Part shown: one piece after another, positions 1 through 23,756 of the stretch | Numbering within the stretch: position 1 is the first letter of the stretch | How the letters are laid out: each line of letters begins with the position of its first letter | Assembly (NCBI GenBank): GCA_021292105.1 | Contig: CM037870.1 | Location: 43,418,576-43,482,575, forward strand | From: Anadara kagoshimensis | Lineage: Eukaryota > Mollusca > Bivalvia > Arcoida > Arcidae | DNA: 64,000 nt | Reading direction: 5' to 3' | The notes under the pieces: model-generated | The model's input: the letters and a program-made list of their open reading frames with translations, nothing else | Databases searched by the model: none | What the model was told of the DNA's origin: nothing | Made by a program: the position numbers and the translations under genes

Positions 1-2110
1 ACAAAAAGAAAAAGGTATAAACATCAGTTTGATGTTAAGAAAATGATCACCAAGACAGTTGCACCAACGTTAAACAATATTGTAATTTTAAAAGCAGGCT
101 TTTACGGTATTGTAATTTTTTGTGTCAAAATCATAACGATAAACATTTAAAAACGCAGAAAAAGACAAACAGTTATTTTATGCTAGTCATGAACACGGGC
201 ATTGAAGGCAATGACTAAAAAAATCACTGGATTAAATTTGATTTTAAATATGTTTTCCAATTAGTTGTCAGAAGGCTTAATGGTGACTTTAAAAGAAAAA
301 TAGTGAATTCACGGAAATATTCCCAAAAAGGGCCCATACACATGTATTTGACCGAAGCAATTGAAGTAAAATCGGAAAGGCAAAATTATGTACAGTAGTC
401 TGCGGTGAAATACAATGGACATAAACAAAAACAAATGACGTCACTTTTCGTAGGTAGACATTTACCCAATCAAAACACGAGTAACAAAGTTACCGATGAC
501 ATCACCTTTTGCAGTCACCAAGTTCACCAACCACAAGGACTTTTTGTAGACAATCAATCGAACTGTAAATCACACGTTCTGAGATCTTGAATGGTAGCGA
601 GTGGAAACATTCCTATGGTTACTCATGGTTTATCGAATACTGACGAAATGCAAATACTATCCGGCATATGAGCTGTATTGTTCCTAGACGAACACTTAGC
701 CTGAAGGATTTCAAATGTGTTAATACTTCCGAAGGCTGATGTTTCTAGATGCATTAGATGCATATCTGAGACATAAAATACATAAATTGCCGATATAATT
801 ATGATTTATCATATTACAAAATTTTATTCTCGTATATTTGTATTCAAAACCGTTTTTCTATTGATTCAAATGAAACAAATCATGTGTGTTTGTTGCTCGT
901 TTAAAGGTTTTCTTTCAAATCATATGTCACACTCGAGGTGTATTCAAAAATGAACATGTCATAATGTTTCAAAGAATTTCAGGTAAGGGGTGTTAGACGA
1001 GGGGTGTGGGTAAAATCGATTAATTGGATTAGAGCTAAATTTTGACAAATTAGCCATGTCTATCGGTTTAAAAAAAGTCATTTCTAAATTTGTGAAATCA
1101 ATAAATCAATAAATCAATAAAATGTTCGTCTAAACACTTGAAATTCAAATACATATTTTAGTGCTAGTATAGCTATATATATTAATATATCATATTTAAA
1201 TATATTTACAAACTCTAAAACAGATTTACAATCTTTGGCTTAAAGTGGGCAATAAAACAAAAAAAAAGTTTGTATCAAAACAAATTTGAGATATGTAATG
1301 TCACAAAGTATGAAGTAATGCTTATATAATGAACTTTTTTGAATTTAGAAATGATACTAATAAAAATATACAAACAATATGATTAAGCTTTGAAATGTAC
1401 AACGTAATATTGCACCATTTAAGAACAAAGATATTACACATTATAACATGATTTTAGGTGAGCAATTAATGGACATTAAGTTGGAATTGTATGCTTTGAA
1501 TAAAATTGAAACAAAATCTCGCCTTTCAAAAAGGTCTCTTTATATACATAAGTTGTAAAAGTTACAAATATACAATGTTTAAGAATTGATATAGGCCGCC
1601 CGCAGTATTTTGGCATACAAATATTAGTGCATTTTCAAATAGGGTTTCAGTTTCGCCCTTCATTGAATTTAGGGTAATAAGGTTGTCTCCATTGCATACC
1701 CTGTGTATCTATCTCATCACTATGCCAATATACAACGGGCGGTCCAACGAGATTTGAAATATGCAAAACAATATAATATATTTACAAACAAATTAAATAA
1801 AACAGCATCATGTGTGTGCATGTTTTGAATGTATGTGTATATTCATGTATTGAAAAGAAAAACACATTGTAACAAGTGTATGCATGTGTATGTATGTGTG
1901 TACATATTTGTGTATCAAAAAAGGCACATATTTAAACAGATCTAACATAATTTAAAAAGGGAATGTGCATAGTTAGCTTTTCAGCACCCAACTCCAAAAT
2001 TTAAAAAAAGTGCATTTGTATTACAAAACGACTCAACACAACTTGAGCATGAACCAATCTGGTCACCATTTGATTTATCGTTGTATCCTCCATTAAAGTT
2101 CTATTTTCGG
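1..2110. other. 3' flank / 3' UTR of the 3CxxC gene
   Basis: AT-rich, no convincing coding sequence. On the minus strand the first clear AATAAA after the stop that I find reads from the TTTATT at 823-828. If used, the 3' UTR would be about 1.3 kb; this is a guess. Positions 380-600 are slightly richer in GC and hold a 61-codon ORF (405-590) without recognisable features. Confidence 0.4.
823..828 (-). promoter_or_regulatory. Candidate polyadenylation signal AATAAA
   Basis: TTTATT on the plus strand gives AATAAA on the minus strand, about 1.28 kb downstream of the stop codon at 2111. It is a plain hexamer match in AT-rich DNA, so the evidence is weak. Confidence 0.25.
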
Positions 2111-2275
2111 TCACGAGAATGACCATTCCTCTTTACATAGCCCTTCCTTACAAGCCTGGCATAGTTCAGCATTATGCTGATTCCTTGGTTTACCGGCACG
2201 TCGATCTATACGTAATGGTGGCCTCACAAATCCGTAAAATATCTGGCCAACACGGTTATATACGTTACCGAGCAC
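2111..2275 (-). CDS. Exon 4 of the 3CxxC gene: C-terminal ligand cluster and stop
   Basis: 54 codons plus TGA, phase 0. The acceptor is TTATTTCTGCAATTTCAG. It begins VLGNVYNRVGQIFYGF, a helix found in RTP-like proteins, followed by a basic stretch (RPPLRIDRRAGKP). It ends with H-N-A-E-L-C-Q-A-C-K-E-G-L-C, the canonical H-x4-C-x2-C-x4-C finish of the domain (H201, C206, C209, C214), then KEEWSFS and stop. The stop follows the domain after only seven residues, so there is no extra C-terminal tail or membrane anchor. Confidence 0.92.
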   Translation of the reverse strand: MLGNVYNRVGQIFYGFVRPPLRIDRRAGKPRNQHNAELCQACKEGLCKEEWSFS

Positions 2276-5200
2276 CTGAAATTGCAGAAATAAGAGAAAA
2301 TGTTTAGGTTTTATTTGTCATAAATCAAATACAAACATGTCGATATGTCTCAATTCAAAATAGCAAAGCAAAGTAAAACATTGCAAGGTAGCACTTTAAG
2401 TTAAACGCTTGAACTTCCACTAGGGAAATGAGGTCGGGTGCTCCGGTATGGAACTCACCTCTTGTCAAGCTAGCTATATCCGTTAAGACTGTATAAGCAT
2501 TTAAAATGAGGAAACTGCTCATTATGATGGCGTGGGATTCCAGAATCACAAAATATTATAAATACACGTAAAATAAAACGACACACGCTTATATGATGTT
2601 TCGACATACTCCGTTTATAAATACAAGCTTAATTTTCGCTTTAGATTATCTCCCTTCAACCTCCAGCATTGAAACAAATTACACGACATGTAGACACGAC
2701 AATGTTGTCATTTATTACCGTTGTGAACAATGGAGGCGATTCAGAACATTTTTAGAATTTTGTTTTAATATTCAAGGTCAATGAGGAATTTCATAATAAT
2801 ATATGCACAGAAATTAATTCTGTCTCACTGACATTAAGACTCGTCTGGTTTAATTCTAATTAATTTTAAAACACGTGGCATGAGCTTAACTTCCTGAGCG
2901 AAGGTTTACCCTTTTAACGGTTAAATTAAAATTGAAAAATTGTAATAATATTTTTTATAAATATTTTTTTTTCAAAAATTGATTTTGTAACAACGTATTA
3001 ACAACCATCTTAACTATGTTGACATAACTGTTGAGGGATGAGAAATCATCGGATTCTAAAACGCAAATTATATTTCTAATTTAGTTTAATTCAACATATG
3101 TATTTTGATTAACTACTCAAATTTCCATCCAAGCAGGCCACAACATTTATATTTACCAAATATGAAGTAAGAGAGTTAATGAGTAAGGTGTGGGTTTTCA
3201 ATCCTGTCGGTTCACTAGCAAGCACATGTGTATCGAGACAATGTGCTCATGGCTTTCTCTACATACCTCTCTTATCATCACATGGGGAATCGGTTTTCTA
3301 AATTTACTGCTTGTGTCACTTTAAAATAATTCCTCAAAAACTAATGTATACTCCTTAATGCAAAGTATTTCTTTCGCTAAATTTTGTAAAATATATTTTG
3401 GTTCTTTGGGTATCTTGAAAAAAAATAGTTTAACAATTATGGTCCAAGCACTTCTGATAAGGAATCGTATTCCAAAACGGGCATCTAGTGCTATAAAATT
3501 AAAACTGGTACGATTTGTTATTTTCAAAATCTCATCAAAAGAACTCATTTGTATGCAGGATATAAAAATCTCAGAGCACCCCTGTATTTGAACACACGTG
3601 TATGAATACACATGAACTTACTTTGACTACTTCTTCCGGGTACCACATGGCGTGTTCGTATTTGCCGTTCTTACACCTTGAGCATTGCTGACCGTATAGT
3701 TTAAACATAACATAACCAGAGTTCGTAGCGTAGTTCAACTGGAACCAGAAGATAACTCGTCCTTTCATTGATGTCCAACCATGGCCGCATTCCTAAAAAT
3801 AGAAGGTATATGTTGACATGTTTACATTTTCTTGTAAGTTATAATTGGTTCCTGTTACAAGGGTTTGAGGTACTGTGTTGCATAGTGGAATTGCATTTTT
3901 GGTAAAATATAAAATTTATATTAACAATTAAAGTAATCAGAGAAGCAAATAAAGAGAATACCAGTCTACTCATAAAAAAATGGTACAATCGACAACAAAC
4001 ATACAGATTCATGTTCAAATCGCGACCCTAAAGCAAAACAAAAAATTGAAAAAGTGAGTACGAGAAAGTCTACCAGGGAAGTGAGGCCGATTGCTACAGC
4101 ATTTAATTTCAGTTGAACGAAACATTTTAAGCCTACTGCATCAAAATCGTAACATCATGAGCTGCTGTGAACGTACGCGAGCTTCAGATACTATAACTTG
4201 ACACTATATCAGTGTCAATACCCGCTGTTATCAGATTATCAGTTAAAAGTACAAAACAATTACCCCGCATGTTAAAACTTGTCAAACACTCAACAACTAC
4301 CATCGTGACACTTACAAAATGTTCTTCTTTAAGTATTGATTTTATATACAAATTGTTGTTGCATCATTTGAATTTTAATTCTTTGCTGTTGCAATATTTA
4401 AATTTATTTAGGGTTGTATGATCATTTCATATTCAATGATGGATCATGAACAAGTCAGTATTTGTGTTTATAGTTTCATGTTGCATCAGGAATGTGTTGT
4501 TGGTCAGCTGTTCAATTAGAATCAATTAACGCAAGGTCTTGTGGTGTATGCGTCTGTGCAAGTGCTTTGTTCCATTATGCATTGACGATTGTACGGATGG
4601 TGTATGCATCTTTGCATACAGAATTGAGTTAATCCGTGCGTTGATGTTTAATTTAGAGAACTATTACAATGGGCCACAACAATACATACTCAAAGGCAAC
4701 TGAAGTGATAAAATATGCGAGCATTTGTGAATGAAGCTTGTAAAATGCTTATCTATGGGGTTATTATATTCTAAAAGGGAACAATATGTTCATTTTCCGC
4801 TTTACCGATTAAAGATATCATCATCAAATTCAAAGCCAAAGTTACTCTTTCTTACTTTGGGCAGTAGGGTTAAGTGACAGAGTAGTCTAGGGCACCACTT
4901 ACGAATAACAAGACATACCATCACATAGGTTCAATAAAGGTTTTCAAAGCTTGCGGACGAATGGCTGTTTTTCTATTAAACTTGTTTCCTTCAATATTCC
5001 GTAAAACACAATAACACCATTTAACTCCAACAAGTCCATTCTACATGTTTGTTAAATGTTCGTTCGATTAAAATTTTTGCAAAATTATATCATCTCCTAT
5101 ATTATTGGTAAGGTAAAAAGTAAAGTAGCAGGGTTGATTGTAAAGCAAAAGAAAAACAAACAATATTTGCACTCTTTTTTAAAATTGGGGGCCACATATT

Positions 5201-7605
5201 TAAATTATTATTATCGCTGATCGATATCAATTTCGACAAAATATTTGTTTCAATAAGACAAATAAGAACAGATAATCTTATTTAAGTTAGGAGAGTAAAC
5301 CACTCTGACCCCGGTCAAATGAGTATAGATAGCCCAGTAACATCAAATACCTTGATCGTAGGGTGAGACCAAATCCTCCATGATTTTCGTTTAAACACAG
5401 AACAAATAACATGAAAAAACGAAAAAATTGAATATTAGTGTTTCTAAGTAAAGACGTTATGCCCTATAATAAATACATAAGTTCGCTGTGATCGTGTGTG
5501 TATGTATGTCAGATGTATCTTGTTTTTTTTGTAATGCATTTGTTTCTATATAGATATATAAAATCTTATTTTTTTTAAATGCATTTTAAAGTGCACGGCT
5601 GCACATATAAATAATGGTGTCAACACGATTCCCGATTTTTCCATAAATCTGTAGCAACTCCGAAAGTTAATGACACAGTTTAAAGCTGTTTAATGTACTG
5701 TACTAGTTGAGCCGTTATATTAAGTAGTATTTTAATTAAAAGGCTCTGAATATTTTTGATGGACCAGAATCCTAGCTGTTTCGATATGAGTTGAGTTGAA
5801 TATTTCACTTATATCAAGACGTTGCCAGCTATAGGAAAGGGTGCAGAAATTTTGCCTGTGTGTTGCGCCGATTACATTATACCACAAGGATCTTTATCGT
5901 GGTGTCATATACCACTTTTTTAATGTTCAGTGTAGTCATAAAATGCATTTAAAAGGTGATACCACGGGGGACGTGGGTTTTTGTCCCTCAAAACACTGCG
6001 TTATTTCTACTAGTGGTGAATGGTACCTTGAAAACAAATTATTGCGCTTAAATTAATAATGTTGATAAGGGTAAGTTAAAAAATACATTTTAGGATGCAC
6101 AGTTGTATAGTGCACAACGCTTTGTCAAATGTTGTACTTATCGAAGTCTAAAAATCGATAATCTAATGTGTATTTAAACCACTTTGCATTAGATTTTTTC
6201 TGGTGACCACCGGGACGAATTTGATTTAAAACAGAAAGTAAAGTTTTATGGTGTACAGTTTTACCCATTGATAAAAAATATTTTGACAGGTATATAGCAA
6301 TCGTGTACCTGTGAAATTTACAATGTACTGACAGCTGAATGTCTGACAATGTTTGTTCTTCACTTTGTAGTACTTCAGATTTATATAGACATAAACTATA
6401 TGTAAGTTTTGTCAACATTTCAAAAAAATCGCATGTTGACCGAGCAGTTTACATACTAAGTACTATATACTTATTTTGAGATGAGCCGTATTTGGACTGA
6501 CCAATATTTAAACAGTACTAAGACATAATTAAAGCACATGAATCTTAATTATGTTTTATTATTTCTAAGTTTACTTAAATCAAGCTTTTACTGTTTGCTT
6601 TATTTTGGAATTATCTCCTTTCTAAAATTTAAATCTTTAATTGACTTCGAATTTAAAACACTTGACACTTATAAGAGAATAATTCCATTGCGTATATACA
6701 ATACAATTGTCTTATGTTTGACAACAAGGCTTTTCTCTTTCCAGAAATGCCAAAAGACTAACATTGTCAATCTAGTGGTTATTGGAACGACGTTTTCATT
6801 TATATTAAGGAATCTTCATTAAAATTCTTTCACCAATAATCATTATTTTGTTTAGTATTAATTGGTGACAGCATTAAACATTGGAGCTATACTTATAATT
6901 ATAAACATTTATAGTCTAAAGTCTGGTACTGACAGTAGCAAAACCTGTATAAGTATTGAAAAGACCAAACTTTCTAAATAGAACCGAGAAATAGTGTTAT
7001 GTTTTATTTAAAATTTCTGCCTTATAGTTCATTTATATTACGCTAGCTATGGTGTTTGATACAAACTCCAAGATCAGATCATAAATTGGCGCAATAATGT
7101 GAAACTGTATTGTCTGACACTTTCCATGTATGTTTATTTTTTGTATTTGGTATGTACATGTAGAGTTAGAATGGATATGCCTTGGGTTTCTGAGAATATT
7201 TATATGTAAATGTGGTTAATCTCCAGATTTAAGTGCAAAAAGAATAAAAAATTAATATTTCCATCATGAATACGCCAGGCTTAAGATATAGAGTAAAAGA
7301 AAGTAACAAAGAAATAGAAAAATCAATTGTGGGCACTTTGAAACGATAAGCAATAGCTAAACATTTTTCTCTTTTCAGTGTTCATCCAAATGGAGTCCAT
7401 TGTCTCAATATCTTTGTATTTTGGATCTTGTTTCTTTTCTATTAAGTTTGTCTGTCGTGAAAAATTCTTCTTTTATTATCAATAGTCTCAATATATATTT
7501 ATTTTGAACTTTGGTTTCTGTTAGGTTTGTTGGCGTGGCATGTTGTTCTTGGCTTTAGCTGATATCAGGAACATTTTATCACACAATCAGCTGTAAATCT
7601 CTCTC

Positions 7606-7643
<38 letters not shown>

Positions 7644-10600
7644 AACAAACATGACAGCCACACACAATATATACTTACTTGACATGAAAATCTAACTTTA
7701 GCACTATCTTTAAATGTTCTCCATCGATCATTTGGTGGATAAAATGTTGGTACTAAGCACCAGGTATGAGGAAAATATTGGCTAAATAATCTGTCGAATT
7801 CTCCATGCCATACCAATTCCATCCTGAAAATAAGAAGAAAAAATATTTTCACATAAAGAAGTGGTTTGATTTTTTGCTTACAAAACTGCTAGGGGTGTCT
7901 AGTCGGTTTCTGCAGAAAAAAAGATAATAATGTGTATTGTATAATTATGATTTGACCAGATGAACATCTCCAATCAAACCGATGGTGATAATCTTTTGAC
8001 TAATTAAGGTAACATTGATTATGGGTCGGGTCTAGCAAGCATTCTCTATGTTCTTTTGCGGTTATTTGATAGAAAGGAAGATAATTTTACTTATTCACTG
8101 TTGAAACTAATTAATTTAATGAAGAATCAACGGGAATCTCCATTATATAGAAATTTCCATTATACAAAATAGAAAAATATACATGCATATAAATAGCGCT
8201 CTTGGTTGAGGGAAACATGGAGGATTCAGTGTCTCATCGAGGGAACATTATCTCCCGAGCAGAGAAGCGAGGGATATAAAGTTCCTGAGGGGAGACAATC
8301 CATTCAAGGGCACTACTAGTACATGTATTTACTTTATTATACCGAACAAAAAGATGTTTTCTTTTACCTTTTATTCCGACAACATGGAATATTGACTATG
8401 AATAGTTAAAGTCAAGATGCTTGGGAGCTATTTATAAGAACTGAGGGATATACGGACAGAGATTACTCGGTTGTTTCCGTGAGTTTTCATGCAAAGCGGT
8501 GAACATTGCAATATTCCATAACAATGTTAACCGCTGTTTCAAACATTGTGAATTGTTTCATGCCACACTATCAGAAGTTGAACAATAACAGTTAAAGAAA
8601 TTTCAGTGAGGTTTAATAACATGTTATATATGTGTATCAAGGGATGTTATATTGCAAAAGACGGGAGTTTTAAGCCATGTTTTGAATTTTAAATGAAATT
8701 TGAATGTACTTGAAACCACATGATTTGATATCATTTTATATTCTGTGTGTTTCCAATGTTAGTGTTTATAGCCAGTAATCGGACTATGTGTGTCTCCTTT
8801 TCTTAATCCGTTCGTATGCTAGAACATGTTCCATGTGGCATTGGCTTTTGGCGAGTATAACTCTTCAGTATGTCATAAGGTGCATGGAATTTAATTAACG
8901 TTATTCAACACGGATGGTCTTGGGCACTTAACCTGTGGAACAACGAAGCTAGTGTCAATCAAACATGTTTGGGGAAATATTAGGAAGCCGTTAGATTAAG
9001 GTGTTCTTCTATGATTATAGATTAAGCGTACATGTTAGCTGAAAAACGAGTGAGAAGTCATTGCTCAATACAGAAGTTGCAATATTCTGAAAAAGGTTGT
9101 TGGACAAGTACCACATGCAGGATGGAATTTTCCAAACACCTATGATCTTCGGTTTCATTGGAAAACTGATTAAAAATCGATGTCCACGATATTACATAGA
9201 CACTAAAACATGTATGCAATGTATTCATAACTCTGGAAGATCTGTATAACGCTGTCTTGTCATAATTTCATTACATGTCATATTTTAGGTAAAGTTGCCC
9301 TCATTCTCAACAAAAAAGGAAAAAAAAATAACTGAAGATGTTAATGGGATTTTTCTTCAGATGTCTACATTTTTTTCGACGGCGGATATGCGTTTGTTGA
9401 CAAATGTTTGTATATATTTTGCCATAAAAACCTATGTTAACATTGTTGGCTTGTAAAATAAGATAATATAACAGTCACTTTTTGACAAGTGCCGTGTTTT
9501 ACATTGACATATAGTGTATCTTGAATAGGTTTTTAACTCGTATATATGCACAAGACTGTAAGGTGATATTATATAACGACTTAATACAATATATCTTATT
9601 TAACATACTCTAGGTCAAGGAATTGCTCATAATAGCTGAACATTCACTTATTAAAATTATATGTACATAAAAAAAATTAATAAATGACCTAGTCAAGACA
9701 GGGTTTTCAGTCAAAGTGTCCTATCATTTTTTTCATTTCTTATAATTCAATAATTGATTCAAGTTACATTCAGGTTTATGTATAGTATAAGTAACAACAC
9801 ACAATTTATATGTAGTGTTAAAGAAGATATGTATGTGTCCTTGTGTGTACTTTACATGTATAATGCATACCGACCGGTATTAGTAAATGTGTTTTCGAAA
9901 CATAAAAAAAACTTGCTAAAACAGTCTTATTTAATACTGTTAACTGTGAAATTTTAGCGGCAGTTTTATTTTAGCGCTTTTAGTAGTCAGATCTTTCCGC
10001 TAAAATACATCTGCGCTAACATTACATATTCTTTTTTCGGAGTTCGTGCAAAAAGTTCATTCGCTAAAATTAAACCTCTTTAATTACTTATGATAAGAAA
10101 ATTCGCTAAAATAAGTATGCGCTAATATAAAGCAGTTTCGAGCTTCAAAATGTTTTAATGGAAGATCCAGGACCTTTTGCCTTTATTTTTGGCAGGTCCG
10201 ACATAAAGTTTTGACTGATTGATAGTTTAAGTATCAAGGGTACCAATGTATCAAAAGGTCATGTGACCTGGGGAATTTTGAACCTCTGAATAACCCTTAA
10301 AGGTTAAAAACTTTATTTGGTTGCTTACTGCTAGATGCACACTCAAAGATTACATAGCGAATACACGTCCATTTTGATAAAAGAAGAAATGGTAAGCTTT
10401 AAGATAATTTCATGATTGATTCGTTTTTTTTCATTTTTTAAATTTCAATAAAAAAGCAAGGGTTTCGTAAATGTGCTTAACACAACGTACCACAAAAATA
10501 TCAATATGACTCTTATTAAACTGCTTTGATTTGATAAATTCATTCAGTCAGTCATGAGGAAGATATCAATATGGCACAAAGAAGTGTCATTTGCTACAAG

Positions 10601-13600
10601 TGACTAGACGTCACTAGCACTGCAGTTATGTGGTTTTGTAAAAGGTGACATTGGATGAGGTTTCAAGATCTGAAAAGTTTCCTGAACACTATCAAGTAAT
10701 AAACTATTAGCAACATGGAAACCATTGATTAACATTTTTTAATTACTAAAGATGGCAAAGTTTGGGAAAACGTTTGCCAATTGAATGTCTAATTCTATTG
10801 TACAAGTAAGACCACACTTTATAATGACTGTAAGAAAAATGGCCTTGACTTAACAGCGGCAAACATGATGTTGAGGAAAGATACACTGTCATATGATGTT
10901 TAATACGTTTGTACAACAATGTCGTATTTACATTTACTACTGTGGTTAAATATGAATCAGTTTTTATATGTGTAAAATTTCATTCAAGATGCTCATCCGC
11001 CCATATAGAACTATTGATATCAACATCTTTTTTCACGCAAGGTGTACAAACAAACGTGTATAATGATAGGTTTATCTGAACAGGTAACGAGCGTTATATA
11101 GAAATTTTAATATGGAATTACTTTGATATGCGAAATGATAAACAAAAATCTTTAAAACGCATGTTTTATTAGAAATAAGACAACTGAGACAGTAACAAAA
11201 TAGATACTTTGACTAAATAAAAATACTTTAGTTTCCTACTATAAGTCGTGATAAATATGTCTGTTATTAACATTTATATATACAGATGTACAAGAGTAAA
11301 CAAAAGTTGTGATGTTACGCTGTGGTACAAGGGTACAATGCGGTATACTGTAGTTTGATATACGGGGTTAAAGAAACTGTGTTTTTAGCTCGGGTCAAGA
11401 TTATTTGCTCAATGAGCTTGGTGATAGAACGCACTCGGTGCAGCCGGATATGTACGGTCCGTCCTTGAGTTGACAAACCATCACAAGTCGAAGTCGCACA
11501 ATAAACCCGCAATACTGAACATTTAAACACAGAATGTGGCCAAATACGCTGATCGCAAGCAAGAGAAAAACAACTCTGTGGTCACGTTGGGTGGCATTAC
11601 CAAAGGTTATTTGTACACCTGTGACCTTCAGTTCCTGACACGATTGTATCATACATGTAACTTCAACCGCTTAAGAAAAACTAAGTCTCAAACGTCCAAA
11701 GGGAGTTGTTGACCTTATCAGTCGTTTGTTCCAATTTGTACAGTAGAATACTTTCCAGGCAAATGTTTAATGATCTGGGTTATTATGTGATTGCCAATAT
11801 TATACAGGTAATTTAGAACGTGCTTCTTCTATAGCTAGCTGTACTGTGAAAAGGATATTTAAAAATTGTCTTTAACATGAATACCTATAAAATTAAAACA
11901 GTTTGGAATGGATAATAATGTCATATTTAGACCCGGAAGTGTCTTTAAATACGAATGATGTTTTATATACACGTAGTCACACTAGTAACGATGTCTAAAT
12001 AATGACCGTAATAAGTTCTAAACACTTGAAATTTAAAAAAAAGAGTAAAACCATACATTTGATATAAAGTATAACAAATCTACATAACGATATATTTTAT
12101 TGCAAATATAACTCCGATGTTTTATTTAAAAAGTCACAAGACCGTCGTCACTTTTTGTAAAACATACATTCAAATATTAAAAGTATCATATTACACATGT
12201 ATGTTCCGGTCCAGTTCCAAGGGGAGACTGACTTTGAAACTTTATCATAATGTAACATAATGCGTGTTTGCTGTGACCTACTTTAAACTCATCTTCAAAG
12301 CTTGACTTTCAAATTCTGTCAAGGTTAGAATGACCTTGTAACTAAAATATACTATCAATTCATCGGATATATATCTTGATTTATCTTTCAAATTTAGTTT
12401 CGTATTTTAAATACATTATACATTATTTTATTATCAACATTTGACATTGTAAAGTCCGGAGATTGATAAACCTTGAATAGCAACGGGATGCGCTTGTATC
12501 AATTTTTGGACAACTTGTCGGAAGTCAGGATGTAATAGTGCAATCAGTGCTCATTGGTTTCATTGTTACTCTATTCCCAATTTTCTAGATTTAATTTTTA
12601 AGTCCGAGGTTTATTACCACGATTCTTTACTTTTTTATTTGGACAAGTAACAATAAATTTTACATATTTAATTCAATCTAATAAGACACAGTTGAATAAA
12701 AAAAACCAGATGAACTAACACAAAAACAAAATATGGCAAAAACAAAATTAAAACTCTAAACCCCTATCTTGCAATATTGGTGTGGTCAGACAAGGTTAAA
12801 TGTGTCCATCTCTAAACTCTGTCTAGCAATAGAGGGATAAATAGACAATCAAGATTAAATTTACTCATCTCTGAAGCTCAATCTAGCATTATAGAAATGG
12901 CCAAACAATTTTTAATTTACAAGCTCCGTCTAGAAATGTAGAGATTATCAAACAAGCCAATTATGTCCATCTTGCATTACAAGAAAGACCAAACAAGGTT
13001 AAATTTACAAGCCCCGTCTTGCCATACAGGGATTATCAAATATCATTATTTACATCTCAAACTACATACAAGTATGTATCAAGCAATACCGGGATGGATG
13101 GTCAAACAACATTTAATTTAAGATCCCAAATTAGAACAGAACTGTTGACAAATAGGACTCGAAGTTCGACTGTCGAGTGGCCGAGATGTAGATAGTTAGT
13201 GACCGAAAAGTTACCATGCCGAAATAGATAGCAGCTTCTGATATAAAGCAAACACTGTCGATTCTGCACTAATTCGCTAGCTCAGTATTAAACGTTCGAC
13301 AGGCGGCACTGTATACGTACATACATGCAGGGCATAAACGGTTACCTTAGATATTATCTATACTAAGTTTAAATTTCAGGTATAGTCAATTAGGTATTCC
13401 GCGTGTGTAAGCCATATTGAAGAGAAACCGAGAATTTCAGAAAAAGAATGTGAATTTATTACCATATAAAATCCAACCGACTGATCTACAGTGGTACAAT
13501 TAAAGGAAATTAAATATAAAACATTGGTTGATTATATCTAAATCACTGACCAGTACTGCCCATTGGCTATGTCCTAGGTGACATTGACTACATATGTCCA

Positions 13601-14703
13601 GAGGTATTGGTCCGTTAAATCGGACTTTTACGTGGAGTGGTCAAGAAGTTATCGAAAGCATTTATCATACTCATCTAGCAGACGTCATTAATATGTCGTC
13701 ATATTCTCTTATCTGGCTTAATTAATAAGCTTAGCGCCAAGAAGAAAGATTGGAGATTTATTCAGCAGTCCTTGAGATTTATTACTGTGGGAAAATGTAG
13801 TTAATGTTGTATTTTGTTCTACTTCTTAATTGTATGCGTTATTAAGCATGAAATAATATACTAGCCTTGTATATTTATGTGTATCCACCACACAGTAGAA
13901 CTTTGATAAAACACTGGTCCTGGTTTCACAATCATTTTTAAGTAAGTTTTTCCTAAACTTAAATCTGACATTAATAACATTGTTACTTATCAAGATATTT
14001 AGGAATTTATGGTGCCATTTTGAAAATCATTTCTATAGCTTTGACCATTTGTTTCAAGAAGGATTATCAAAATTTGCAAAATAAAATTCAAAATGTCTAA
14101 TATGATGTATTCTGAACATCATCGTATAATTAACTGCTAGCAAGACAAATATTCAGTACGCAATGATCACCAGCTGTATGTGACCCTACAGGTTAACGTT
14201 ACTGTAAATGGACAGACGGGTATCACAAAGCACAAAATACAAACACGACGGAACCGCGGTCGTCAGATGCATGTTACATAACTATTGTATTCAATGTGAC
14301 GCGTTGAATGAGTGCAGAGTAATATGCACCAAGTGGAAACGGTAAACTTGAGCCAAGAAAATTGGTTTAGAACCCCTCGTTATCGGCAACCACCCATAAC
14401 CCCTCGGCCCCCTTAGGAAACAAGCTAAAGAATAACTATGATCAAATTGAGATAAAGAGTAACAGTTATCGTGCATTTTGGTCATATACTCAATGTTACA
14501 ATGTGATTATAGATATAAAACATGTTAATTTCCCCTGGAATATATAATTTATTGGTCCCTTTTAAACAAGCCTAAATAGCCAGGTAAATTAATATGTATG
14601 CATTTATGCACATTTAAATTTATGACATTAATAAATGTAGCTGTTTATTTGACATTTTCAGACATTTTTCAGGTTGCGTTGCCATAAAATTATTTCCTCG
14701 TAT

Positions 14704-14756
<53 letters not shown>

Positions 14757-17700
14757 AAGTAAATTTGAGTGTTTATGTGTTTGTGTGTTAGATGTCAACG
14801 GAGAGTTCATTTGTCAATTGATGTATGCGGAACGGAGAAATGACTTGTATATATTATAACCATGACAACAGTAATTTAATGTACATGTTGAAGGGTTTTA
14901 TAGTAAACAATCTCATCCTAGTACCTGTAATTAAGGGGAAATAAATTCACACCTCAAAGATTCTAAATGATATAAAACATTCCAGTAATTGCTTCTATGT
15001 CTGTAATCAAACTTCGGAATCTTCACATTTTGTTAAACTAAATCGAAAAACATATTAGTATCCCTTAACCTTCTAATAGCATGTGAAGACTGCAAGGAAC
15101 CCCCCCCCCCCTCTCTCTCTCTCTCTCTTATAAAGCAATGGACAACAGAGTACATTTTGGACAAACATTCTCAAAGGGAATGTTTTATTACCCAGGAAGA
15201 GGAAGGAAAGGGTGTAATGATTGCTATTGTGTCCCAGTCAATATTCATTAGTTTCTGTCATTTATGGGATGGTGGAGGGAACCGAAATATTCGGAGAAAA
15301 AAAACTGACCTTGGTTATTAATTTTACAAACTTTTCACACTAGCAACTCTCACGAGTGCGCTTCGAACCAGGTCGGTGCAAGGCACCCTTATTCGAGTCT
15401 GGTTTATGCGAGACAATCTGGTTCGAACCTGGCCCGTGAGAGGCACTCTCATTCGAGTTTACCCGGTGCTTAGCACTCTAATTCAAACCTAGCCAGTGAG
15501 AGATACTCTGATTCGAACCTGGCCAGTGAGAAAAACTCTGATCTTAACCGATGAGGTTTATCATGATCAGTAGAGTAATCTATAACACGATTTTTTAATC
15601 TGAAATTGAGCGGACTTTATCTTTGGTAGTTTTCCTAAACTGGGGGTATGCTAAGAGGTACCTCCTTACTATGCAGATCACGTTGTAGTACATACAGATA
15701 AAATCACATCATAGTTCTAGTTACTGTCCCTATGACGAAATACGAGCTACCTCAACTATCATCTGATCAGGGTGTTTTAAAGGACTTCGTGACGTGGTTT
15801 AATTTGATTTAAACATTGTATAAAGATTTAAACATTAACTTTGATTTTATACTGAAAATATAGAAAGTAAACAATAGAAACAATCTTTACTGAAAATGAG
15901 TACACATTTGAGTAAATTGAACATCTTCTAATAAAAAGAAGACCTTGAAGCGATCAAGATAAGTGAAATAATTCTTATTTCGGCGTAAAACACAATTCTT
16001 CCACCAATCCATATATTTATTTAAAGCACGGTAACTACACATGCTTTATGATTAATATACAACGTACCCTGTGATAAGCTTGAGGAGTTTGTTAAATTGT
16101 TGTGGAAAGTATGATTTATATAATTTATTACAAGTGAGAGATCCTGGTATTTTGTCGTCTGCTAAAAGTAATTTAAAACTAAAATATTCTAAAATGTTAA
16201 ATGTATTCTTCTTTCATTTTTTTTCTTTTTTGTATTTTCTTATTGCCTGATAGATTTCTTACAATTTTATATTTGAAATCGTTAAAATTAGAGGACACAG
16301 AGAATTCATAAAACAGGATGTATTTTTCTCAGGTGAGCAGACGACCAACGTTACAAAATGAAATATGACAACCACGAGTTTTACAAGTATTACCTAATAT
16401 TTCACGCAATGTGACATGGTTTATGCAAATGTAGCCAGATTAGGACAAAGTTTATACAGGGAGGGTAAACATATTAAAATTTATTACTCATTTTAATTCT
16501 GCAAAAAGGTCAAAAACTGTAAAACTTAGCTTGTTACTCATTTCATTCTGCAAAAGGTCAAAAACTATGAAATTCATTCTGCAAAAAGGTCAAAAACTGA
16601 GAAATTTATTACACAATTTGGTAAGATAATGCACCTCTGCAAAAAGACCAAAATGTGAAAATAGATTTATTACTCATTTTAGCAGGAAAATAGACATGAA
16701 TTAGACTGTACCCTTGGCAATTTAGTGATCCGTTCATCACAGCTATTTTTGGATTTTAATGAAATAAAAATAGCACATGACTATTTCTATTCTAGTATAG
16801 ACAGTTTAAAAATCAAAAATAACTCGTACCACGCTTTAAGGTATGTGTCAGTTTTATTCTCAAATGGAAAAATAAAATCAGGTTTTAAACACATTGCATA
16901 TGTCATTGTCAAATAAATACGACTGTATATGTATATTCTGAATCTTGAACTTCCTTCTTAGGTCTTTCAGCTTTCTTTTTTACAAAAGTTTATAATTTAC
17001 CAGCGAAAAGAGAATTGTGGTTTTAAGGACATTATTCATTATATCAACTGACGAAAAAATCGTGTTTTTGAGGACAATATTCATGATACCACCGACGAAA
17101 GAAATCGTGGTTTTGACGACAATGTTTATAACATCATCAGCGAAAAAGAAAATCGTGGTTTTAAGGACAATATTCAGTACATCAACTGACGAAAAAATCG
17201 TGGTTCTGAGGACAGTATCACTGATAAAAGAAAATCGTGGTTTTAAGGACAATATTCATAATACATGTTGTCTGGTGAAATAATACATTTCGTCTAATGC
17301 TGTATTTTTCACTGGTTGTCACATTAATACGACAAGTAGAGATTTATTTTGGTAGAAGATGTTCGTAATTCCTAGTTACCTGACGGTCTGACAGTGTGTA
17401 TAGTATTATGTTATAGTATTATGTATTTAGTCGGTAGTCATACATGTTGACATACTGATGAGTGTTTCCATATCAGTTTTCCTTTCAATATTTAACTTTA
17501 ATTAAATGTATGTAAATATAAAGACAAAAAGATCGCATTACAAGTCCGGTAACTCAGGGATATAAAGCTAACATCAACATTCAGATTTACACGATACTGT
17601 ACACATATTAATGATTATGAAAGGTCAGACCTCCCGTCCAAGTTACCAGCATATCTATGCAGGTAAAACAACTAAAGCATACTCCAACATACAGCTAACT

Positions 17701-17917
17701 ATACACAGAAGATAAACAAAATTTAAGCATACCTTTGAGATAATAGAAGTCCCAAATCCTTGTCTCCATAGTTAATTAAGTGCATAATTCCTGGACTTAA
17801 TGTCATTGGTGCCACAGGATTTACTGGACTTACACCCGGACTGACCACCGGACTCACCCCGGGGCTGATCCCGGGGCTCACCGGCTGTGTGACCGGTGGG
17901 GTCAGTGTATAGATCAT
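2111..17917 (-). CDS. 3CxxC-type zinc-finger protein (RTP/ZAR1-like), four-exon gene
   Basis: Spliced CDS join(17917-17733, 7823-7679, 3792-3622, 2275-2111) on the minus strand: 185+145+171+165 = 666 nt, 221 aa plus TGA. Residues 1-61 are a Pro/Ser/Val-rich leader. Residues about 63-216 match the 3CxxC zinc-finger layout: an N-terminal W-x-F-x-x-L segment (WHGEFDRLF), RFSC-QEC-GHGW (C109, C112), YGQQCSRC (C147, C150), and a C-terminal H201...C206-Q-A-C209-x4-C214. This order is the signature of receptor-transporting proteins (chaperones that help chemosensory GPCRs reach the membrane in vertebrates) and of ZAR1-type RNA-binding proteins. No C-terminal transmembrane segment follows the domain, unlike vertebrate RTP1/2, so a soluble protein is more likely. 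The exact role is unknown. The ATG is the first in frame after an upstream TAA at about 17955 and has A at -3. The splice junctions all obey GT-AG. I am very sure of the domain and less sure of function. Confidence 0.9.
2276..3621 (-). other. Intron 3 of the 3CxxC gene
   Basis: 1,346 bp, GTAAGT...CAG, phase 0. It is AT-rich and carries one dispersed-family copy (2362-2482) close to exon 4. Overlapping short ORFs on both strands at 3321-3611 have no recognisable product. Confidence 0.85.
2362..2482 (+). repeat. Dispersed family A, partial copy
   Basis: Carries the family core in degraded form: AGCAAAGTAAAA, then GAACTTCCACTAGGGAAATG, GGTGCTCCGG and AGCTAGCTA. It lies in intron 3, about 90 bp from exon 4. 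Confidence 0.65.
3622..3792 (-). CDS. Exon 3 of the 3CxxC gene: zinc-finger core
   Basis: Exactly 57 codons in phase 0. It begins ECGHGWTSMKGRVIFWF and ends HAMWYPEEVVK. It supplies C112 (second ligand of the first CxxC), the conserved G-H-x-W-x-S and K-G-x-V-x-F strand, then YGQQCSRC with C147 and C150. The acceptor is CTATTTTTAG and the donor AAA|GTAAGT. The W-Y-P-E-E-V segment before the donor is the family's usual link to the C-terminal helix. This is the most diagnostic exon for the family call. Confidence 0.93.
3988..4106 (+). repeat. Dispersed family A, partial copy
   Basis: Has the AACAAACATAC opening, a degraded middle and CAGGGAAGTGAGGCCGATTG. Located in intron 2. Confidence 0.55.
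5788..5910 (-). mobile_element. tRNA-derived SINE, tail fragment
   Basis: Matches the tail half of the SINE at 57071-57394: GAATATTTCACTTATATCAA, GCCAGCTATAGG, GTGCAGAAATTTTGCCTGTG and ATCTTTATCGTG. The tRNA head is missing. A palindrome fragment follows directly at 5903-5966. Confidence 0.7.
5903..5966. mobile_element. Palindromic MITE, degraded copy
   Basis: TGTCATATACCACTTTTTTA followed by TCATAAAATGCATTTAAAAG and GGTGATACCA resembles half of the palindrome at 63777-63896. Both copies sit next to the same SINE family. Confidence 0.5.
7598..7642. repeat. (CT)n microsatellite 36 bp inside the exon-2 donor
   Basis: About 45 bp of CT with one CTAT interruption. On the transcribed strand it is a (GA)n purine tract beginning about 36 nt after the GTAAGT donor of exon 2. 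Confidence 0.95.
7679..7823 (-). CDS. Exon 2 of the 3CxxC gene: N-terminal part of the zinc-finger domain
   Basis: 145 nt: one base finishing codon 62, then 48 codons beginning MELVWHGEFDRLF and ending KDSAKVRFSCQ. The acceptor (TTCTTATTTTCAG) has a good pyrimidine tract and the donor is the consensus CAA|GTAAGT. W-x-x-x-F near the start and W-R-x-F...A-x-V-R-F-x-C at the end are the family's typical spacing before the first zinc ligand, C109. The intron that follows falls between the two cysteines of the first CxxC pair. An internal ATG sits at the second codon, but the phase match with exon 1 makes it an internal methionine. Confidence 0.9.
9941..10137. repeat. TTTAGCG-rich repeat, probable MITE relic
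   Basis: Several TTTAGCG / CGCTAAA motifs occur in both orientations (ATTTTAGCGG, TTTAGCGC, CGCTAAAAT, GCGCTAA). The ends TAACTG...AGCAGTT look like decayed inverted termini. No coding sequence. Confidence 0.4.
12760..13125. repeat. Degenerate minisatellite, roughly 40-60-bp units
   Basis: Six or so units of the pattern CTCTGTCTAGCAATAGAG followed by ATCAAACAAGGTTAAATTTA, each diverged with indels. It looks old compared with the satellites at 19.6-23.8 kb. Confidence 0.65.
13130..13330 (+). repeat. Dispersed family B, copy 1
   Basis: Shares GCTCAGTATTAAACGTTCGA, a CAGG...ACTGTA end and upstream TCGAGTGGCCGAGA-like text with 33740-33900 and 41915-42135. Diverged; no coding content seen. Confidence 0.4.
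14705..14753. repeat. (CT)n microsatellite
   Basis: Uninterrupted CT dinucleotides, about 49 bp. Confidence 0.97.
15100..15128. repeat. Poly-C then (CT)n
   Basis: About 12 C followed by about 8 CT repeats. Confidence 0.95.
15361..15540. repeat. 30-bp tandem repeat with tRNA B-box-like motif, six units
   Basis: Six units start exactly every 30 bp (15361, 15391, 15421, 15451, 15481, 15511), with a decayed partial unit before them. The unit reads ATTCGAACCTGGCCAGTGAG then AGACACTCTG. Units 3 and 6 carry [G]TTCGAACC, close to the RNA polymerase III B-box consensus GGTTCGANNCC. No A box is at the correct distance, so these are not tRNA genes. Confidence 0.85.
16472..16681. repeat. Imperfect minisatellite, TCTGCAAAAAGGTCAAAAAC units
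   Basis: Four copies of TCTGCAAAAAGGTCAAAAAC or close variants, separated by TTTATTACTCATTTTA-like spacers of variable length. Confidence 0.8.
17008..17268. repeat. Minisatellite, 51-57-bp units next to exon 1
   Basis: Five to six units of the form AAATCGTGGTTTTAAGGACA, ATATTCAT and CATCAACTGACGAAAA. Both strands stay open for about 90 codons because most unit lengths are multiples of three; no start context or known protein supports coding. Confidence 0.85.
17733..17917 (-). CDS. Exon 1 of the 3CxxC gene: start codon and Pro/Ser/Val-rich leader
   Basis: Encodes residues 1-61 plus two bases of codon 62. It starts MIYTLTPPVTQPVSPG and continues with five or six imperfect S-P-G-[IV]/S-P-V steps, then a short conserved-looking tail (PGIMHLINYGDKDLGLLLSQ) that leads into the domain. 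The exon is clearly more GC-rich than its surroundings because of the CCCCGGG-type repeats. The donor is AAAG|GTATGC on the minus strand. The exon ends in phase 2 and is completed to Arg by the first base of exon 2. The leader is probably disordered and could expand or shrink by repeat slippage. A 5' UTR intron is possible (TTTTAG lies just upstream of the ATG) but cannot be settled here. Confidence 0.82.
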
Positions 17918-19605: not shown

Positions 19606-21785
19606 ACCACTGGTAATGGCAGACAACTGATGGCTTCTCAGTGTTTGTTGTAAGTGTGACCTTACCGAACACACCAATGCTGACGTTCGAATTCTAGTAT
19701 ATGCAGTGTGTATGGTTCAAAGCACACAATGGTGAAGTTCAACGACAGATAAATGATGGCTTCTCCGTGTGTAAGTGTGACGGTACCAAACACACCAATG
19801 CAGACTTTCTAGTATATACAGTGAGTTTTGTACAAAGCACACAATGGTGAAGTTCAAAGACAGACAAATGATGACTTCTCCGTGTGTAAGTGTGACGGTA
19901 CCAAACACACCAATGCAGACTTTCTAGTATATACAGTGAGTTTTGTACAAAGCACACACTGGTGAAGTTCAAAGACAGACAAATGATGACTTTCAGTGTG
20001 TAAGTGTGACGGTACCAAACACACCAATGCAGACTTTCTAGTATATACAGTGAGTTTGGTACAAAGCACACAATGGTGAAGTTCAAAGACAGACAAATGA
20101 TGACTTTCAGTGTGTAAGTGTGACGGTACCAAACACACCAATGCAGACTTTCTAGTATATACAGTGAGTTTTGTACAAAGCACACAATGGTGAAGTTCAA
20201 AGACAGACAAATGATGACTTTCAGTGTGTAAGTGTGACGGTACCAAACACACCAATGCAGACTTTCTAGTATATACAGTGAGTTTTGTACAAAGCACACA
20301 ATGGTGAAGTTCAAAGACAGACAAATGATGACTTTCAGTGTGTAAGTGTGACGGTACCAAACACACCAATGCAGACTTTCTAGTATATACAGTGAGTTTT
20401 GTACAAAGCACACAATGGTGAAGTTCAAAGACAGACAAATGATGACTTTCAGTGTGTAAGTGTGACGGTACCAAACACACCAATGCAGACTTTCTAGTAT
20501 ATACAGTGAGTTTGGTACAAAGCACACAATGCTGAAGTTCAAAGACAGACAAATAATGACTTTCAGTGTGTAAGTGTGACGGTACCAAACACACCAATGC
20601 AGACTTTCTAGTATATACAATGAGTTTGGTACAAAGCACACAATGGTGAAGTTCAAAGACAGACAAATGATGACTTTCAGTGTGTAAGTGTGACGATACC
20701 AAACACACCAATGCAGACTTTCTAGTATATACAGTGAGTGTTGTACAAAGCACACAATGCTGAAGTTCAAAGACAGACAAATAATGACTTTCAGTGTGTA
20801 AGTGTGACGGTACCAAACACACCAATGCAGACTTTCTAGTATATACAATGAGTTTGGTACAAAGCACACAATGGTGAAGTTCAAAGACAGACAAATGATG
20901 ACTTTCAGTGTGTAAGTGTGACGGTACCAAACACACCAATGCAGACTTTCTAGTATATACAGTGAGTTTGGTACAAAGAACACAATATTAATGGTGAAGT
21001 TCAAAGACAGACAAATGATGACTTTCAGTGTGTAAGTGTGACGGTACCAAACACACCAATGCAGACTTTCTAGTATATACAGTGAGTTTGGTACAAAGCA
21101 CACAATGGTGAAGTTCAAAGACAGACAAATAATGACTTTCAGTGTGTAAGTGTGACGGTACCAAACACACCAATGCAGACTTTCTAGTATATACAGTGAG
21201 TTTGGTACAAAGAACACAATATTAATGGTGAAGTTCAAAGACAGACAAATGATGACTTTCAGTGTGTAAGTGTGACGGTACCAAACACACCAATGCAGAC
21301 TTTCTAGTATATACAGTGAGTTTGGTACAAAGCACACAATGGTGAAGTTCAAAGACAGACAAATGATGACTTTCAGTGTGTAAGTGTGACGGTACCAAAC
21401 ACATCAATGCAGACTTTCTAGTATATACAGTGAGTTTTGTACAAAGCACACAATGGTGAAGTTCAAAGACAGACAAATGATGACTTTCAGTGTGTAAGTG
21501 TGACGGTACCAAACACACCAATGCAGACTTTCTAGTATATACAGTGAGTTTTGTACAAAGCACACAATGGTGAAGTTCAAAGACAGACAAATGATGACTT
21601 TCAGTGTGTAAGTGTGACGGTACCAAACACACCAATGCAGACTTTCTAGTATATACAGTGAGTTTTGTACAAAGCACACAATGGTGAAGTTCAAAGACAG
21701 ACAAATGATGACTTTCAGTGTGTAAGTGTGACGGTACCAAACACACCAATGCAGACTTTCTAGTATATACAGTGAGTTTTGTACG
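19606..21785. repeat. 114-bp satellite array, about 19 units
   Basis: Period 114 bp, beginning with one degenerate unit and followed by about 18 very similar ones. Core ACAATGGTGAAGTTCAAAGA, then GATGACTTTCAGTGTGTAAG, GACGGTACCAAACACACCAA and TCTAGTATATACAGTGAG. Variants recur in a two-unit pattern (for example the GCTGAAG/AATAATGAC variant at about 20530 and 20758). Two units carry the same 6-bp ATTAAT insertion, 234 bp apart (about 20987 and 21221). The minus strand is open for 537 codons, a by-product of the 114-bp (38-codon) period. No transcript evidence can be drawn from the sequence. Confidence 0.97.
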
Positions 21786-23756
21786 TATGGTACTGAGTAT
21801 ACAATGGTAAAGTTTAAGGACAGACCACAAATACCTTGCTATTTATTGTCCGTTGTAAGTACAATGGTGAAGTTTAAGGACAGACCACAATTACCTTGCT
21901 ATTTATTGTCCGTTGTAAGTGTGGTACCGATTATACAATGGTGAAGTTTAAGGACAGACCACAAATACCTTGCTATTTATTGTCCGTTGTAAGTGTGGTA
22001 CTGAGTATACAATGGTGAAGTTTAAGGTTAGACCACAAATACCTTGCTATTTATTGTCCGTTGTAAGTACAATGGTGAAGTTTAAGGACAGACCACAATT
22101 ACCTTGCTATTTATTGTCCGTTGTAAGTGTGGTACCGAGTATACAATGGTGAAGTTTAAGGACAGACCACAAATACCTTGCTATTTATTGTCCGTTGTAA
22201 GTACAATGGTGAAGTTTAAGGACAGACCACAATTACCTTGCTATTTATTGCCCGTTGTAAGTGTGGTACCGATTATACAATGGTGAAGTTTAAGGACAGA
22301 CCACAAATACCTTGCTATTTATTGTCCGTTGTAAGTGTGGTACTGAGTATACAATGGTGAAGTTTAAGGTTAGACCACAAATACCTTGCTATTTATTGTC
22401 CGTTGTAAGTACAATGGTGAAGTTTAAGGACAGACCACAATTACCTTGCTATTTATTGTCCGTTGTAAGTACAATGGTGAAGTTTAAGGACAGACCACAA
22501 ATACCTTGCTATTTATTGTCCGTTGTAAGTACAATGGTGAAGTTTAAGGACAGACCACAATTACCTTGCTATTTATTGTCCGTTGTAAGTACAATGGTGA
22601 AGTTTAAGGACAGACCACAATTACCTTGCTATTTATTGTCCGTTGTAAGTACAATGGTGAAGTTTAAGGACAGACCACAAATACCTTGCTATTTATTGTC
22701 CGTTGTAAGTGTGGTACTGAGTATACAATGGTGAAGTTTAAGGACAGACCACAAATACCTTGATACTTATTGTCCGTTGTAAGTGTGGTACTGAGTATAC
22801 AATGGTGAAGTTTAAGGACAGACCACAAATACCTTGATACTTATTGTCCGTTGTAAGTGTGGTACTGAGTATACAATCGTGAAGTTTAAGGACAGACCAC
22901 AAATACCTTGCTATTTATTGCCCGTTGTAAGTGTGGTACCGATTATACAATGGTGAAGTTTAAGGACAGACCACAAATACCTTGCTATTTATTGTCCGTT
23001 GTAAGTGTGGTACTGAGTATACAATGGTGAAGTTTAAGGACAGACCACAAATACCTTGCTATTTATTGTCCGTTGTAAGTACAATGGTGAAGTTTAAGGA
23101 CAGACCACAATTACCTTGCTATTTATTGTCCGTTGTAAGTACAATGGTGAAGTTTAAGGACAGACCACAATTACCTTGCTATTTATTGTCCGTTGTAAGT
23201 ACAATGGTGAAGTTTAAGGACAGACCACAATTACCTTGCTATTTATTGTCCGTTGTAAGTACAATGGTGAAGTTTAAGGACAGACCACAAATACCTTGCT
23301 ATTTATTGTCCGTTGTAAGTGTGGTACTGAGTATACAATGGTGAAGTTTAAGGACAGACCACAATTACCTTGCTATTTATTGTCCGTTGTAAGTACAATG
23401 GTGAAGTTTAAGGACAGACCACAATTACCTTGCTATTTATTGTCCGTTGTAAGTACAATGGTGAAGTTTAAGGACAGACCACAAATACCTTGCTATTTAT
23501 TGTCCGTTGTAAGTGTGGTACTGAGTATACAATGGTGAAGTTTAAGGACAGACCACAAATACCTTGATACTTATTGTCCGTTGTAAGTGTGGTACTGAGT
23601 ATACAATCGTGAAGTTTAAGGACAGACCACAAATACCTTGCTATTTATTGTCCGTTGTAAGTGTGGTAACGAGTATACAATGGTGAAGTTTAAGGACAGA
23701 CCACAAATACCTGGCTAGTGTCTGCGGTAGGTTTGATACCGGACCTACAATAGTGA
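21786..23756. repeat. 60/74-bp satellite array, about 29 units
   Basis: Unit ACAATGGTGAAGTTTAAGGA, CAGACCACAA[AT]TACC, TTGCTATTTATTGTCCGTTG, TAAGT (60 bp). Many units have an extra GTGGTACTGAGTAT (74 bp). Rare variants recur together about 731 bp apart (TTGATACTTATT units and the ACAATCGTGAAG unit at 22874 and 23605), showing block duplication. Its core is almost the same as that of the adjacent 114-bp satellite, and the switch near 21786 happens without any unrelated spacer. Confidence 0.97.

Follow-up and report, generated by a model that had tools for sequence, protein, structure and literature searches.

A window of 64,000 nucleotides from the bivalve Anadara kagoshimensis, the whole stretch of DNA analyzed here, carries what we judge, with a probability of about 0.6, to be an intact, constrained nuclear gene for a soluble protein of the RTP type, whose zinc ribbon likely binds RNA and may act as a receptor adaptor. 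The predicted protein would begin with a Pro/Ser-rich, disordered N-terminus, continue through an RTP-type lead-in (residues 63-102), and carry a basic 3CxxC zinc ribbon (residues 103-214). The practical value is modest: a testable gene model that single-ORF scans overlook.

A predicted four-exon gene and its zinc ribbon

The earlier note on this DNA had proposed four exons of 145-185 bp, joined at consensus splice sites with matching phases into a protein of 221 residues; this model, with its predicted splicing, is confirmed at the level of sequence. All four exons lie on the minus strand. Exon 1 (17733..17917, 185 bp) opens with the ATG, encodes residues 1-61, and ends with the first two bases of codon 62; the 9.9-kb intron 1 (7824..17732) is in phase 2. 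Exon 2 (7679..7823, 145 bp) completes codon 62 with its third base and encodes residues 63-110, which include the first half of CxxC motif 1, which is interrupted after Gln110 by the phase-0 intron 2 (3793..7678). Exon 3 (3622..3792, 171 bp) encodes residues 111-167, with Cys112 and CxxC motif 2 (C147/C150), and is followed by the phase-0 intron 3 (2276..3621); exon 4 (2111..2275, 165 bp) encodes residues 168-221, with H201, CxxC motif 3 (C206/C209) and C214, and the stop codon. Every intron is GT-AG (donors GTATGC, GTAAGT, and GTAAGT; acceptors TTTCAG, TTTTAG, and TTTCAG), and the joined exons make 666 nt with one stop, the terminal one. A possible poly(A) signal, AATAAA at 823..828 on the minus strand, lies ~1.28 kb downstream of the stop; it is the single AATAAA/ATTAAA match on the gene strand between the stop and the window edge.

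Exon 1 differs from its surroundings in composition (GC 0.50 vs. 0.30-0.38 in 2-kb bins) and contains a weak 24-bp tandem repeat. Its product is rich in Pro, Ser, and Val, with 11 Pro in 61 residues, and is presumably disordered. An acceptor-like TTTTAG ends 8 bp upstream of the ATG, so an additional upstream exon is possible.

Why would a gene of this kind escape notice? The earlier note had held that no single ORF reveals it, and the numbers agree: an unspliced genome search gives 41.6 bits for the exon 3 region and 16.4 bits for exon 4, whereas the spliced protein matches Pfam PF13695 (Zn_ribbon_3CxxC; curated cut-off 23 bits) with 78.7 bits (E 5.3e-22), residues 103-212 covering positions 2-100 of the 100 in the profile; thus, the whole domain is revealed by splicing. 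This comparison, which the earlier note had named as a check, gives the significant match expected of a 3CxxC protein. NCBIfam returned two matches only, both far below their cut-offs.

The three CxxC motifs and the conserved His of the 3CxxC family are present, and the ligands named in the earlier note (C109/C112, C147/C150, H201, C206/C209, and C214) are where it placed them; all are invariant in an alignment of the window protein with both ZAR1-type proteins encoded on contig C15 (see below) and with human RTP4, as we take its sequence to read. C214 is the least secure of these because human RTP1, which stands outside the alignment, presumably lacks the last cysteine. The three CxxC pairs and His201, perhaps with Cys214, would bind zinc and fold the ribbon, which is basic (pI 9.5, with 17 K+R vs. 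7 D+E). Upstream of it, the exon 2 lead-in follows a W-x3-F ... W-x-L ... W pattern common to our assumed RTP4 sequence. The earlier note had remarked on the missing C-terminal membrane anchor, and indeed none is found in the 221-residue protein: there is no transmembrane stretch, and the mean hydropathy over 19 residues peaks at 0.78.

The surroundings are repetitive. Two adjoining tandem arrays, at 19649-21784 (114-bp unit, 18.6 copies) and 21800-23717 (60/74-bp units), lie upstream of exon 1 at a distance of ~1.7 kb; long ORFs between 19739 and 23538 were rejected as genes, their products being translations of tandem repeats. No second gene was seen among the translations read of 71 stop-to-stop frames of at least 75 aa, Rfam gave no match at its gathering threshold, and a search for viral contigs gave four pattern matches, none confirmed. 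Elsewhere in the genome, on a chromosome-scale contig, COX1 sequence containing many in-frame TGA codons (Trp in the mitochondrial code) occurs at three places within C4:4487676-4537603; these are mitochondrial DNA, inserted or mis-assembled. COX1 translates well with the invertebrate mitochondrial code (code 5).

Two copies on one contig and coding constraint

The genome searched comprises 1.115 Gb in 36 contigs, of which C14 (72.7 Mb) contains the window. A whole-genome search with the protein gave eight matches, each of the four exons twice: a second copy lies at C14:42732181-42748425, ~688 kb from the window gene on the same strand, with an identical protein and with all exon lengths and splice sites kept. 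Nine of the 666 coding bases distinguish the copies, and all nine differences are synonymous (dN 0, dS 0.067); the chance of this under neutral site counts is 8.4e-7, 2.7e-6, or 5.2e-6 at transition weights of 1, 2, and 3, respectively. Exon 2 has two of the differences, exon 3 six, and exon 4 one; exon 1 has none in its 185 bases, so the comparison gives no test of exon 1. The introns differ at 2.3% (intron 1), 9.2% (intron 2), and 6.5% (intron 3) of aligned bases, plus indels. This is good evidence for purifying selection on exons 2-4, and for what appears to be a working, constrained coding gene; the uniformly synonymous differences are the strongest evidence for the gene model. What they say about function is less specific, since dN 0 from two near copies fits housekeeping and other conserved roles alike.

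Could the model nevertheless be a decayed gene or an accidental chain of open frames? The tandem repeat in exon 1 would speak for this; but a full-length domain is spread over three exons, and the splice sites are kept alongside nine exclusively synonymous changes in the second copy, which makes a spurious gene barely credible.

The similarity extends far beyond the gene. Seventeen collinear pieces account for 67.7 kb of the 92.7 kb compared, with a mean identity of 94.2% (43.3975-43.4902 vs. 42.711-42.800 Mb), a chain that leaves out one overlapping collinear 8.8-kb piece at 90.7% identity. Divergence per 500-bp bin lies between 0% and 12%, apart from a single bin, next to a large indel, that reaches 26%. 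Of four probes placed outside this stretch, that from 43.10 Mb has its counterpart at 42.41 Mb (91%) and that from 43.39 Mb at 42.698 Mb (98%). The 43.64-Mb probe is single-copy, and the 43.508-Mb probe belongs to a dispersed repeat and lacks a partner in the expected position within the 40 scored of its 620 candidates. The hits shown for the probes from 43.10, 43.39, and 43.508 Mb, with 40 candidates scored for each, are confined to C1-C19 of the 36 contigs. Between ~42.41-42.80 and 43.10-43.49 Mb of C14, homology thus recurs at an offset of ~690 kb wherever sampled, that is, with one probe at 43.10 Mb and one at 43.39 Mb, and continuously from 43.397 Mb. The first tandem array upstream of exon 1 is ~4.7 kb long beside the second copy (42750121-42754847) and 2.1 kb in the window.

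Is the second copy a second gene? These patterns favor the other haplotype, left unmerged in the assembly, over a true paralogue. A recent tandem paralogue at ~0.69 Mb, which would mean two functional genes, is suggested by the shared contig and strand, by the long collinear chain and the further homology between 43.10 and 42.41 Mb, and by two ZAR1-type loci on C15 that each appear once in the family search, so that doubling is not genome-wide. Yet patchy divergence with many insertions is what haplotypes are expected to show, and another 3CxxC exon is also doubled: a PF17180 exon (97.9 bits) occurs at C5:9943280-9943387 and C5:7544593-7544700, 2.4 Mb apart, and the three longest DNA pieces shared by these copies are 90-96% identical. 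We consider a paralogue rather unlikely. If the C14 copies are haplotypes, dN 0 and dS 0.067 describe polymorphism, and constraint is still shown.

The RTP branch and its relatives in the genome

The family search found two further PF13695 loci above the cut-off, both on C15 (7174554-7175681 and 9956257-9959658), 2.8 Mb apart in opposite orientation and diverged from each other. At each, a phase-0 intron that separates CxxC motif 1 from motif 2 splits the ribbon over two exons; the joined exons score 44.2 and 48 bits against PF13695, and the joined proteins match the structure of zygote arrest protein 1 (9jko) with E 8e-26 and 3.9e-23. By these matches, both loci are ZAR1-type. The product of the first, C15:7174554-7175681, ends in an acidic Asp/Tyr-rich tail. 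The doubled PF17180 exon on C5, which we take to be ZCCHC24-like, encodes a related 3CxxC ribbon at a locus separate from the window gene, with a spacing of 20 as counted by eye. A weak 3CxxC exon at C16:36917375-36917521 scores 20.1 bits, below the cut-off, and has stops and a broken second CxxC motif; it looks like a decayed RTP-type exon. In two genome searches, which give a lower bound, it is the only RTP-type match besides the C14 pair, so there is no sign of an RTP-type expansion. The genome thus has members of at least three 3CxxC branches, the window gene being the RTP-type one.

What places the window protein on the RTP branch? The CxxC motifs are spaced 38/59, as they presumably are in human RTP1 (38/59) and nearly so in human RTP4 (38/61), if we have their letters right; in the ZAR1-type proteins of this genome, motifs 1 and 2 are 27 apart. 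In local alignments, residues 61-221 reach z 23.0 with our assumed RTP4 and 22.2 with our assumed RTP1, vs. 4.0 and 8.7 with the genome's own ZAR1-type proteins (ZAR-a and ZAR-b) and 2.2 with ZAR1 as we take it to read; for scale, ZAR-a itself gives z 34.3 with that ZAR1, 9.9 with RTP4, and 7.5 with RTP1. The assumed RTP4 agrees with cysteines reported at 55/93/154 in the available text of PMC10470548; CXXC starts are given as 57/95/157 in that of PMC12431671. Because spacing, gene structure, and alignment concur, and separate ZAR1-type genes exist in the same genome, the window protein very probably belongs to the RTP type. The earlier note had left its kinship undivided between RTP and ZAR1; that kinship is upheld and sharpened to RTP. 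The two branches are related to each other, as the ZAR-a alignment with RTP4 indicates.

A ZAR1-type maternal RNA-binding protein would share the Pfam family, the eight ligands, and the order of a disordered N-terminus followed by a C-terminal ribbon, which we take to be that of ZAR1. RTP4 has a variable region and a membrane anchor after its ribbon; the window protein, unlike RTP4, ends 7 residues beyond C214, so that in domain order (ribbon last) it resembles ZAR1. However, two distinct C15 loci already match the solved ZAR1 structure, whereas the 221-residue window protein finds no match in a PDB sequence search even at E 10; its spacing is 38 rather than 27, its introns are placed differently, and the extra CxxC pairs are absent. 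A ZAR1-type identity is accordingly very improbable. The C-terminal transmembrane anchor of RTPs is likewise absent, but it does not define the group: in the part of PMC8172065 that is available, fish RTPs lack an anchor, amphibian RTPs vary in this respect, and anchors are dispensable for both RTP roles. Since fish RTPs do without one, its absence from an RTP-type protein is not unusual.

Possible functions and known systems

ZAR1 binds RNA. In the available text of PMC10470548, the zinc fingers of RTP4 bind viral RNA, the third finger being dispensable for antiviral activity, and RTPs regulate cell-surface receptor levels according to that of PMC8172065. Because RNA binding is common to the RTP and ZAR1 branches, it is the activity chosen here: by analogy, the folded ribbon would most likely bind RNA, and it may also serve as an adaptor that brings membrane receptors to the cell surface, in the manner of mammalian RTPs. 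This soluble RNA-binding zinc ribbon, which might double as a receptor adaptor, is a tentative proposal; the strong conservation points to a steady housekeeping or developmental role over an arms-race antiviral one.

Could the gene instead be immune-induced and antiviral, like vertebrate RTP4, or challenge-responsive, like Ciona Ci8? As described in the available portion of PMC3639994, Ci8long has an RTP-like domain and five exons, with a phase-2 exon 1 encoding a Pro/Gly-rich product; LPS raises a short transcript that ends in intron 1 and, slightly, the long one. Upstream of the window gene, one GAAANNGAAA site lies 231 bp from the ATG, a single short motif that is uninformative, and the 1.48 kb scanned contains no NF-kB consensus. 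Candidate signals for a Ciona-like polyadenylation in intron 1 (ATTAAA at +231, AATACA at +306, and AATAAA at +385) are unremarkable in AT-rich DNA and were set aside. Positive selection is reported for many vertebrate RTP clades (PMC8172065, available part), whereas not one residue has changed between the C14 copies at dS 0.067, which speaks against an arms-race role; nor is an expansion seen, with one decayed-looking exon besides the pair in searches that give a lower bound. We regard an immune role as unlikely and prefer a constrained, soluble RTP-type protein with the RNA-binding or adaptor activity outlined above.

When did the RTP branch arise? The available text of PMC8172065 places its origin in jawed vertebrates. 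In one invertebrate, RTP-type and ZAR1-type proteins are encoded by separate genes, which suggests that its ancestors already had two distinct branches. It is an even bet that the RTP/ZAR1 split predates the separation of the main bilaterian groups and that a single constrained RTP-type gene, with a Pro-rich exon 1 like that of Ci8, keeps an ancestral, pre-antiviral function; if so, RTPs would be older than that stated origin. With a soluble product and what appears to be a single locus, the gene lends itself to asking which tasks RTPs had before their antiviral and odorant-receptor chaperone duties arose.

RTP-like genes of invertebrates have been published before: besides Ciona Ci8long, Vizzini et al. 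(2013) include RTPs of Ixodes (a tick) and Clonorchis (a fluke) in the available part of their paper (PMC3639994). A literature search, with broad queries of which only the top matches were considered, found no molluscan or bivalve RTP.

How does the window gene compare with these known systems? With vertebrate RTP1-5, whose letters we assume, it shares the 3CxxC ribbon, a spacing of 38 between motifs 1 and 2 and ~60 to motif 3, the H-x4-CxxC element, and the W-x3-F and W-x-L lead-in; it differs in having its ribbon at the C-terminal end, a Pro-rich N-terminal exon, and neither variable tail nor anchor. It has four coding exons, vs. two exons in the human RTP3 gene (PMC3153387, available part). 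Ciona intestinalis Ci8long, compared by description in the accessible text of PMC3639994, is likewise an invertebrate, multi-exon gene with an RTP-like domain and a Pro-rich exon 1 that ends in phase 2 (218 coding nt, the phase being computed from the published number, vs. 185 nt here); unlike the window protein, Ci8long has 437 aa, five exons, and two predicted membrane segments. ZAR1 and ZAR2 belong to the same Pfam family and have the same eight conserved Cys/His residues, but differ in a spacing of 27, extra CxxC pairs, and a phase-0 intron separating motif 1 from motif 2. The window gene is a well-formed addition to the known RTP/3CxxC family rather than a new kind.
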